DNA from: Spirobacillus cienkowskii
GTDB lineage: Bacteria > Bdellovibrionota_B > Oligoflexia > Silvanigrellales > Silvanigrellaceae
Reading direction: 5' to 3'
Assembly: GCA_003339605.1 (NCBI GenBank)
Contig: QOVW01000059.1
Location: forward strand, 1-64,000
DNA: 64,000 nucleotides
In this document: piece after piece, positions 12,330 to 16,111 of the stretch
Position numbering within the stretch: the first letter of the stretch is position 1
How the letters are laid out: each line of letters opens with the position of its first letter
Translations under genes and position numbers: made by a program
The notes under the pieces: model-generated
Database searches by the model: none
What the model saw: the letters and a program-made list of their open reading frames with translations, nothing else
Told to the model about the DNA's origin: nothing

Positions 12330-13325
12330 TTAGGATTCCATTGTATTATTTTCAGGAGCAGTAATATTAGGCGGATTTTTATCGAGCAAAATAAACTTAT
12401 TTTGATGCATTGCCATCCAAAAATTAGGGTCAGGCATGACACCAACTTCAAACTGGGTTTCAACAAAAAAGTCGTTATCTTGTTTCATTTTGTCAAGAAT
12501 ATCCATGCAAAAAATCTGTATTTTTTCTTGATTTGTTTCAACATTATTGACTCTTAAAAAAACAGTACGCAACCATCCTGAGTCTTGAGGAGCTTGAGGC
12601 GGCAATATGGCACCAAGAGCTGCTGCTTCAACATTTTCAATATTGCTCAAAATTTTTAACGCATGCTCCTTTTGTAGTTCGTTAAAAACGTCTGGAGGAA
12701 ATGCAATTTGCATCCCTTCAGAAGATGCCTCTGGTGATTGCTCATTGGAAACCGCAACTTGAACAGGGCTACGTTGGGTTTGTGGCACAATCCCCATAGC
12801 AAGTTGCTTGTATTCCAGTTTGTTAAGTACAATAAATGGAGCGCTTCCAGGATTTATCACAATCACTTCAGCTGGGCTGGGCTCTAATAACTTAAAAATA
12901 TCTTGCCCACGAATTGAAACATATTGGCCACCTTCTGAGCGCCATCTCCGAGCAGCAGCAGCACTGGTAAATGCAGCAGCAAATTGAACACCTTGGGCAT
13001 TAGACAAAATTGCAACATTCACACTTGAGTTTTCTTGAGCCACTTGATTTTGTTCAGACTCTTCTGATGAATTGGTATCGGGTAATGCAAGAAGCAGATC
13101 GGAAAACAACAATTCTTGATACACTTTTGCTCTATTTTCTGGCGCGTCTAAGCGCGCATTTTCAATCATTGCTGCCTCTAAATGGACAGATGGAACAGGC
13201 TCGCTTGGTTGCTGTGATCCTTCTGCTTCGCTCGGTTCTTCAGATGAGTTTGCATCTGCACTATGCTGTGCATTATCAAATTTTTTTGATTGCTGTTTTT
13301 TTCCAAATAAATTTTTTAAGACCAT
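12330..13325 (-). CDS. SseB-family protein
   Basis: The 331-residue protein begins with a low-complexity Ser/Glu/Gln-rich stretch (about 10-50). A segment at about 105-190 matches the SseB N-terminal pattern: a value compared in AAFTSAAAARRW, then IRGQDIFKLL, then EVIVINPGSAPFIVLNKLEY. A C-terminal SseB-like region with FCMDILDKM follows. SseB proteins have no firmly established biochemical role, and E. coli SseB is linked to serine sensitivity. It sits between gpmI-mazG and kdsD on the same strand. The name rests on motif resemblance only. Confidence 0.65.
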   Translation of the reverse strand: MVLKNLFGKKQQSKKFDNAQHSADANSSEEPSEAEGSQQPSEPVPSVHLEAAMIENARLDAPENRAKVYQELLFSDLLLALPDTNSSEESEQNQVAQENSSVNVAILSNAQGVQFAAAFTSAAAARRWRSEGGQYVSIRGQDIFKLLEPSPAEVIVINPGSAPFIVLNKLEYKQLAMGIVPQTQRSPVQVAVSNEQSPEASSEGMQIAFPPDVFNELQKEHALKILSNIENVEAAALGAILPPQAPQDSGWLRTVFLRVNNVETNQEKIQIFCMDILDKMKQDNDFFVETQFEVGVMPDPNFWMAMHQNKFILLDKNPPNITAPENNTMES

Positions 13326-13405: not shown

Positions 13406-16111
13406 TTAACAATAACGTCTTTTTTTAGCATTGCTCCACAACTCATTCCAAGTATCCAAACTGAGTTGTTTTGCAGTTTCATCAGTAAGTTGCATATTTT
13501 TTTCTTGCATAATTTTTTCCATTTCAAAAAATCTATTGATAAATTTTTCTATTGCTGCACGAACAATGAAATCAAAATCAAAATGGCTACATCCGTCTGC
13601 TGTTTCTTTAAGAAACTGCACGAGATTAGACATCGCAAAAATCACATCACCAATTTCATCGGCCACACGCACAGGGTCGATACGCTCAACTTCAAGCTCT
13701 ATCTGCAACTCTTTAACTTCTGAAAGCACATCAGAAAAAACTTGAGAGCATTGTGGCCAGCTAAAGCCAACTGCTTTTGCCCTTTTAGAAATTTCTGATG
13801 CAAAATTTAAAGTAGGAAGAGATCGTTTTTTTAATGCTTTTTTTAATAATGAATTTACTTTGCTCATGTTTTGAGGCTGTGCTTGTTCTTTTATTTGCTC
13901 CCATTGCGTTGCCACATCATCTGCAGTTTTAACATCTTGTTGTGTTTTATTAAAAACATGCGGATGTCTATCAATCATTTTTTTATTAATTGCGTTAAAA
14001 ACATGATTGATTGAAAAAACCTGGGCTTCTGAAGCAATTTGCGCATGCAAATAAACTTGTAGTAACACGTCACCAAGCTCATCACAAAAATTCTGACTCA
14101 AATCTTGTGAAGGTTTTTGTTCGTATTTTGTTATCGCATCAACCACTTCATAAGCTTCTTCTATTAAATAAGAACGCAAGCTCCCAAAAGTTTGTTCTCT
14201 ATCCCAAGGACACCCATCTGGAGCACGCAATTTTGCAATGGTTTCAGCAAATTCAATTACAATTTTTGCATAATAATAATTATTTTGCGAAGACAATTTT
14301 AAAGAATTTCCAATTTTAGGAGTTGCATTATTTTGTGCCTGAACGTTTTGATGATTTATTTTTTTTTTTGGATCATCAAACTGAATAAGAGAAGGCTCAT
14401 AAAAATTTGGTTGTTCAAACCCTGCCAAATCTAAAACGGTCGCCGCCACATTGGCTAAACCCGCATTTTCTAAATTTTCTTTTAACGTTATCGATTGCTC
14501 CAATGCTTCGGCATTAAATATTGCAAAAGGCACAGGAGCTAGAGTATGGCTTGTTTTTAATTTGGGTTGGCCATTTTTATCGAACACAACTTTTTTTGTT
14601 TTTTTATCCAATTCAAACATTTCATCAGCATTGCCATGATCGGCGAGTACAAGCAAAATTGTGTGTGTTTCTTTAGCCGCTTGCATAATACGACCCAAAG
14701 CAAGATCTACCGCAGCAACAGCCAGCACAGCGGCATTAAAGTTACCAGTGTGGCCAACCATGTCACCATTTGCAAAATTAATGCGACCTATTTCAAACGA
14801 ATTAGCATGCATTTGTTTTATAGTTTCGTCTGCAATTTCTGCTGACTTCATCCATGGACGCTGATCAAAGGCACACAAATCTGAAGGTATTTCTACATAA
14901 TTCTCAAAATTAGAAACAAATTTTCCTGTTCTATTGCCATTCCAAAAATAAGTCACATGTCCATATTTTTGAGTTTCACTGCAAGCAAATTGCTTAACCG
15001 ATGCGGCGCTCAAGAGTTCTGTCAGTGTTTTATCGATTGCTGGGGGACTCACTAAAAAATGTTCAGGAAGCTTGAGATCGCCATCATATTGCATCATTCC
15101 TGCATAATAAATTTTTGGAAATCTTTTTCTTTGAAATGCTGGAAAATTTTGTTCTGTAAGCGCGCGACTTATTTGTATAGCGCGATCTCCCCGAAAATTA
15201 AAAAATACAAAACTATCTTCGTCATTAACAGTCCCTATTGGAATTTCATTTTCTGTAATGACAAAAGGGGGCAAGTCTTGATCAAAATAATTTTTTTCTG
15301 AACGCAAACTGGTAATTGCATCACTTAACGAAACAAACTTTCTTCCTTCACCCAATATATGAGCGTTGTAACCTCTTTCTACAATAGACCAATCACTTTC
15401 GTAACGATCCATAGTGACAAAGGTTCTTCCACCCCCTGACGCCACACGACAATCAAAATTTGCAGAATTGATTTCAGATAAAAATTGATTCAATGTATCA
15501 ACGTAGTCTAATGCACTCAGAGGACCAACATCTCTTCCATCCAGCAAAACATGAAGTCTAACTTTTTTTACACCTTCTTTTTTAGCGCCACGAATTAACT
15601 CAAACAGATGCTCAATATGGCTATGCACATTGCCATCAGACAATAGACCACAAAAATGTAAAGTATTTTGCGTATTTTTTAAACCAGTGCGATTGGACAC
15701 AACGTGCTGCCAAGCTTCACCTCGAAATAGGTCGCCAGACTGCAATGCGCTGTTAACAAGTTTTGCACCTTGCGCAAAAATACGCCCTGAACCCAAGGCA
15801 TTATGGCCCACTTCACTGTTGCCCATATCCTCATCGCTTGGTAAACCGACTGCAGTACCGTGAGCTTTTAAAGTTCTAAACAAAGAACCCGAAAACAATT
15901 GCGCTAAATGGGGAGTGTACGCGGCATTCACCGCATTACCCCCAAAAAATGCTTCTGATGGCAAAATGCCGTTCTGGCTTTTGGACAGCTCTTGTGAAAT
16001 GTTTGACTCTGGATTTGCAACCCCCACTCCATCCATGACAATCGTTAATATTTTTAACTTCTCTTGGGCGGGGCGGGTGCGTTTTAATTGAAATGTATTT
16101 GATAAGACCAT
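13406..16111 (-). CDS. gpmI-mazG: Fused phosphoglycerate mutase (cofactor-independent) and MazG nucleotide pyrophosphohydrolase
   Basis: This is one uninterrupted 901-codon frame. Residues about 18-560 are a full cofactor-independent phosphoglycerate mutase, with VMDGVGV metal-binding Asp, catalytic Ser99 in DMGNSEVGHN, LLDGRDVGP, the GGGRTFVTMDRYESDW segment and a late DHGNADEM metal site. A polar linker follows (about 565-615). Residues about 616-901 are a complete tandem MazG, with CPWDREQTF, a first EEAYE/DELGD pair and a second EVKELQIELE/DEIGD pair. The first half interconverts 3- and 2-phosphoglycerate. MazG hydrolyses NTPs to NMP and pyrophosphate and in E. coli influences ppGpp. Normally these are separate genes. 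Confidence 0.9.
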   Translation of the reverse strand: MVLSNTFQLKRTRPAQEKLKILTIVMDGVGVANPESNISQELSKSQNGILPSEAFFGGNAVNAAYTPHLAQLFSGSLFRTLKAHGTAVGLPSDEDMGNSEVGHNALGSGRIFAQGAKLVNSALQSGDLFRGEAWQHVVSNRTGLKNTQNTLHFCGLLSDGNVHSHIEHLFELIRGAKKEGVKKVRLHVLLDGRDVGPLSALDYVDTLNQFLSEINSANFDCRVASGGGRTFVTMDRYESDWSIVERGYNAHILGEGRKFVSLSDAITSLRSEKNYFDQDLPPFVITENEIPIGTVNDEDSFVFFNFRGDRAIQISRALTEQNFPAFQRKRFPKIYYAGMMQYDGDLKLPEHFLVSPPAIDKTLTELLSAASVKQFACSETQKYGHVTYFWNGNRTGKFVSNFENYVEIPSDLCAFDQRPWMKSAEIADETIKQMHANSFEIGRINFANGDMVGHTGNFNAAVLAVAAVDLALGRIMQAAKETHTILLVLADHGNADEMFELDKKTKKVVFDKNGQPKLKTSHTLAPVPFAIFNAEALEQSITLKENLENAGLANVAATVLDLAGFEQPNFYEPSLIQFDDPKKKINHQNVQAQNNATPKIGNSLKLSSQNNYYYAKIVIEFAETIAKLRAPDGCPWDREQTFGSLRSYLIEEAYEVVDAITKYEQKPSQDLSQNFCDELGDVLLQVYLHAQIASEAQVFSINHVFNAINKKMIDRHPHVFNKTQQDVKTADDVATQWEQIKEQAQPQNMSKVNSLLKKALKKRSLPTLNFASEISKRAKAVGFSWPQCSQVFSDVLSEVKELQIELEVERIDPVRVADEIGDVIFAMSNLVQFLKETADGCSHFDFDFIVRAAIEKFINRFFEMEKIMQEKNMQLTDETAKQLSLDTWNELWSNAKKRRYC

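Follow-up and report, generated by a model that had tools for sequence, protein, structure and literature searches.

A conserved slippage site, most likely a transcriptional one, probably yields two proteins, GpmI alone and GpmI–MazG, from a single gene in the Fluviispira clade of the family Silvanigrellaceae, as judged from genome sequences. The gene lies in a window of Spirobacillus cienkowskii DNA (the whole stretch analyzed, 64,000 nucleotides of contig QOVW01000059.1) in the assembly referred to here as G000, and a one-contig complete genome of the same species, G056, was available for comparison. The domain fusion is genuine, and the A-run, its conservation, the relations among the reading frames, the missing start codons, and the protein-type conservation of the MazG leader are all observed. 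In the mechanism that we propose, an ancestral adjacent gpmI-mazG pair would have been fused into one gene in Silvanigrellaceae, and RNA polymerase would be expected to slip at a conserved run of 10 or 11 A (A10 or A11) that marks the junction in the Fluviispira clade. Each genome would then use the one gene to make both GpmI on its own and the long GpmI–MazG. The long form would be the slipped product in A10 genomes; in genomes with A11, the assembled window among them, it would be the unslipped product, and GpmI alone would be the slipped one. The length of the run in the genome would set which product forms the majority, and a set share of an abundant glycolytic enzyme would thereby carry MazG, which lacks its own start codon in several of these genomes.

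Domain structure and distribution of the fused gene

The first-pass annotation of this DNA had described a single frame encoding both a complete GpmI (iPGM) with the catalytic Ser99 and a complete tandem MazG with two metal-site pairs, and all of these features were confirmed (Table 1). The iPGM equivalog model TIGR01307 matched residues 58–569 with 397 bits (cut-off, 330.65), covering model positions 19–496 of 504, i.e., its full length, and PF06415 and PF01676 both scored above their cut-offs in the GpmI part. In the alignment with the nearest solved iPGM structure, PDB 3nvl, which reaches residue 577, Ser99 sits in NSEVGH (within DMGNSEVGH), and the motifs GDMVGH, ADHGN, and SHT are also present. 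The GpmI part scored 550 and 531 bits against the trypanosomatid iPGM structures 3nvl and 3igy, respectively, and about 300 bits against the Bacillus type. Residues 621–897 matched the MazG models TIGR00444 (212.7 vs. a cut-off of 148.3) and NF007113 (219.1 vs. 208), PF03819 matched twice, indicating that both tandem MazG domains are present, and both metal-site pairs of the EExYE/ExGD type align with those of E. coli MazG (3CRA), the nearest solved structure for this part. By these curated models, the C-terminal part is a MazG nucleoside triphosphate pyrophosphohydrolase. The AlphaFold model of the fused ORF (mean pLDDT, 75) places the final strand of GpmI at residues 576–581 and a helix at residues 608–629, followed by MazG. 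Directly downstream of the gene is a protein with an SseB N-terminal domain (12330–13325, − strand), and the gene order gpmI-mazG, SseB-like, KdsD-like was also found in Fluviispira multicolorata (Silvanigrellaceae, Oligoflexia), the named genome closest to the window.

Table 1. Features of the gpmI-mazG gene, in window coordinates
Feature	Position	Strand	Basis or remark
gpmI-mazG fused ORF	13406..16111	−	ATG start, 901 aa, A11 state as assembled
GpmI (iPGM) part, residues 1–584	14360..16111	−	TIGR01307 and Pfam matches; 3nvl alignment
A11 homopolymer, candidate slippage site at junction	14359..14369	−	A10 in same-species G056
Linker, low model confidence, residues about 583–607	14291..14365	−	AlphaFold pLDDT <50 at residues 583–609
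MazG part and leader helix, residues about 608–901	13406..14290	−	TIGR00444/NF007113, 3CRA alignment, leader conservation

We searched for the same pair of domains in relatives. Uninterrupted gpmI-mazG frames were present in G000, G004, G001, G007, and G009, and in G011 for the part of its sequence available; in G012, contig ends inside the linker interrupt the pair. Elsewhere in the class, the two genes are as a rule separate neighbors, and mazG has an ATG ahead of its CPWD motif in all 15 of the pairs examined. Because the wider class has adjacent but separate genes, the fusion is confined to Silvanigrellaceae among the genomes compared. Two further fusions suggested by frame lengths, in G039 and G054, were rejected: each has a stop, after which mazG begins at an ATG of its own. 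An assembly chimera was rejected because several independent genomes, spread over several genera, carry fused frames. Since relatives share the fusion, in some cases with no homopolymer at all, an assembly error alone does not account for it. In a tree of concatenated GpmI and MazG sequences, the hard-fused G001 is the first branch of the family; the family node has a support of 77 and the rest 100, including the clade of G000/G056, G004/G005, G006, and G002/G003. G001 is labelled as belonging to the genus of the window, yet this tree makes it the basal branch of the family (support 77). In G010 (C755), the MazG domain belongs to an open frame of 732 aa, the upstream portion of which is something other than GpmI, and no GpmI match was found in this 83%-complete genome. 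A full MazG was present as one copy per genome in seven genomes, and a search for gpmA-type enzymes, which left out ApgM (archaeal type), gave no matches above the cut-off in 11 genomes.

The A-run at the junction

The linker of the window reads GATGATCC-A11-TAAATCATC, and the run, which is absent from the earlier description of the fused ORF, coincides precisely with the point where GpmI naturally ends. With 11 A the frame stays open; with 10 A it continues as PKKK and then meets TAA, just past GpmI. This is the state in G056, in which GpmI terminates in DPKKK: the two genes are identical at 2,687 of 2,704 positions, and the sole gap is the A-run (A10 vs. A11). A10 is also found in G002, G003, G005, and G006, and A11 in G004, so that A10 or A11 occupies the same position in all seven Fluviispira-clade genomes (six species). 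G008, from the sister clade, has A9 with an unchanged frame relation. In the stop state, GpmI is closed within 3–6 codons, and one extra A opens the MazG frame. A run of at least nine A on the coding strand, with a distinct product in the changed frame, is therefore present here as A10/A11, and the third frame class is absent from all seven genomes of the clade. A stop between the two parts in relatives, which the first-pass annotation had named as the sign of an assembly error, was thus borne out only by half: the pair is fused in several genomes, some of which have no homopolymer, and a junction stop separates it in G056 and four other Fluviispira-clade genomes. The picture of one uninterrupted, always-fused frame is contradicted by a stop that hinges on a single A, and a switchable join is the right picture.

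It is possible, although rather unlikely, that the eleventh A of the window is a sequencing or assembly error, that the true state is A10, and that the uninterrupted frame does not exist in the DNA. The one-contig genome of the same species carries A10, and when runs of ≥8 were compared between G000 and G056, the three that differed were all ≥10 and were each one base longer in G000. However, 52 of the 55 runs were equal in length, the loci had been selected for long runs in G000, and an in-frame A11 was found independently in G004. Even if the window were truly A10, our conclusion of slippage would be unchanged, because A10 is the commoner state of the clade.

The two lengths, A10 and A11, are scattered among each other in the tree, so the run has changed in length at least twice. 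Such flips between close relatives would be tolerated under our proposal because slippage would give both products either way. Replication slippage may be the source of the flips as a form of phase variation, and in a stronger version of this idea it would toggle the gene between A10 (GpmI only) and A11 (GpmI–MazG), with GpmI constant and RNA slippage incidental. The occurrence of both lengths in two genomes of one species (G056 and the window), and in the sister pair G004 (A11) and G005 (A10), is consistent with such toggling. Nevertheless, we consider the stronger version improbable: five of the seven genomes would be nominally MazG-off, free drift in length should also produce the third frame class (none in the clade), and A10–A11 transcripts in other bacteria slip regardless of the genomic state (PMC4256274; PMC3711429).

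To judge how unusual the run is, we used an evenly spaced 400-kb sample of G056 (31.7% GC; 301 ORFs; 342 kb coding) together with pattern counts in the whole genome, and obtained expected run counts by synonymous shuffling. No coding run of ≥10 was found in the sample, compared with about 14.6 expected for A and about 6.2 for T, whereas coding runs of 6–8 A exceeded the shuffling expectation. Coding A/T runs in the sample had a sharp upper limit at nine. The whole genome contained 17 A/T runs of ≥10, and the junction run was the only one at which a long ORF ends and another frame goes on for 320 aa. Two other in-gene A10 runs of G056 occur in this species only, with A8 or shorter in five other species. 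Many bacteria are known to select against runs of about nine, and when homologues share a run of the same length, this has been read as an indication that the slippage serves a purpose (PMC1088944); the avoidance of long runs would also follow from replication slippage. A search for a two-run pattern found nothing. The dnaX gene, intended as an internal slippage control, was one open frame in nine of nine genomes, and its check for A-runs covered four.

Biotin ligase (BirA), type III pantothenate kinase (CoaX), and an RluA-type pseudouridine synthase are fused in one 1044-aa ORF (L221:99-3230, + strand, in G056; G000:C69:13815-16946, − strand), and the fusion is found repeatedly within the family. 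The gene of this species has an A10 between the CoaX and RluA parts, and a shift into either of the other frames meets a stop within eight codons. We rejected this gene as a second slippage fusion, since most genomes of the family have it as a single open frame and no run of 10 occurs outside the species.

Expression of the MazG frame

In the five A10 genomes, a full MazG is encoded only in the −1 frame, which is open back to the run. No stop-state genome has an ATG in the MazG leader, and G005, G006, and G008 have no ATG, GTG, or TTG ahead of CPWD. The leader is conserved as protein. Across its 48 codons, G002 and G003 differ at 9, 7, and 20 first, second, and third positions, with a dN/dS of 0.19, and the dN/dS for G004/G005 is 0.14, both values coming from short stretches in which dS is near saturation. 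The other two frames of the leader contain 1–6 stops each. The leader is therefore translated, or was until recently, as a continuation of GpmI; its conservation could partly stem from an earlier in-frame period.

MazG in A10 genomes might instead be translated separately, with a TTG, an ATT, or an internal ATG serving as a rare or weak start, and the fused and split states would then be neutral alternatives. Candidate codons exist, namely TTG codons in the leaders of G056, G002, and G003 and an ATT just ahead of the MazG domain in G005 and G006, and E. coli MazG starts only a few residues before the same motif in the 3CRA alignment. This plain split is nonetheless highly doubtful, given the leaders without ATG, the three genomes without ATG, GTG, or TTG, and the conservation of protein sequence upstream of the candidate starts; moreover, no Shine-Dalgarno sequence suitably placed for a MazG start was found in the leaders.

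The fusion could also arise in A10 genomes by −1 programmed ribosomal frameshifting at an in-frame heptamer, as in dnaX. In-phase A_AAA_AAG occurs in G002, G003, and G006, A_AAA_AAC in G005, and a variant in G008, and A_AAA_AAG is the E. coli dnaX site (PMC5009743). Ribosomal frameshifting at the in-phase heptamer could contribute, but we think it very unlikely to be the mechanism: five genomes showed no consistent downstream RNA structure (z-scores, −1.6 to +1.2), no Shine-Dalgarno-like stretch was seen by eye just upstream of the run, 10 A is more than a heptamer needs and such a run is strongly avoided elsewhere, and the A11 genomes would be left unexplained.

Transcriptional slippage has precedents at runs of this length. 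In E. coli, cassettes with 9–11 A gave 40–63% frameshift product (PMC3711429), and in Citrobacter rodentium, transcriptional slippage at the A11 of tssM1 yields 20–25%, and the two products are both required (PMC4256274). We infer that slippage occurs at the RNA level and that two products are beneficial, the likely benefit being that MazG is held at a fixed fraction of GpmI. The hard-fused G001, G007, G009, and G011 have no run, and two products are therefore not needed throughout the family. We lean, by a modest degree, toward the wider view that a glycolytic gene uses homopolymer slippage and appends a pyrophosphohydrolase to a set fraction of its product, with a ground state that can flip between A10 and A11.

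Known systems and biological meaning

A search of the available literature found no paper describing a GpmI–MazG fusion, and neither enzyme is mentioned in the available portions of two surveys of recoding (PMC3711429; PMC5009743). A close likeness is seen in tssM1 of C. rodentium and tssM3 of Yersinia pseudotuberculosis, in which a poly-A run stands just before a stop, one additional A restores the long frame, and one species needs slippage for the long form and the other for the short form (PMC4256274). In that system, slippage was measured, at 15–25%, and both forms of tssM1 are needed (PMC4256274), whereas slippage in gpmI-mazG is our interpretation; furthermore, the tssM run lies within one protein, and the gpmI-mazG run joins two unrelated enzymes. 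Like gpmI-mazG in our proposal, dnaX (tau/gamma) is a cellular gene with short and long products that have a common N-terminal part, and the identity of the unslipped form varies by lineage; E. coli uses −1 frameshifting and Thermus transcriptional slippage (PMC5009743). The dnaX gene of E. coli has stimulators, whereas none were found at gpmI-mazG, whose long form, unlike that of dnaX, adds a whole independent enzyme. The OrfA-OrfB transframe proteins of insertion sequences are adjacent frames joined by slippage at an A-run, as proposed here for gpmI-mazG, but they belong to mobile elements and serve the regulation of transposition (PMC1088944), whereas gpmI-mazG is a single-copy housekeeping locus. 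Finally, the YabN-type methyltransferase–MazG fusion (NF052436) also has MazG at the C-terminal end of a fusion enzyme, but its N-terminal partner differs, and the fused ORF scored only 237.9 against its cut-off of 525, through the MazG part alone.

For annotation, these results are a warning that genes of this kind labelled as “split” or “frameshifted” can be functional, and that the calling of a fusion should not hinge on a single homopolymer base. The connection that the first-pass annotation drew from the fusion, by way of ppGpp, between energy metabolism and the response to starvation is speculation. If the slippage is real, gpmI-mazG would be an instance in which bacteria recode a core metabolic gene, and do so at a cellular locus outside mobile elements, and the A10, A11, and run-free hard fusions would constitute a natural experiment within one family. 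The pairing of GpmI with MazG makes it testable whether the level of MazG must track that of a glycolytic enzyme.
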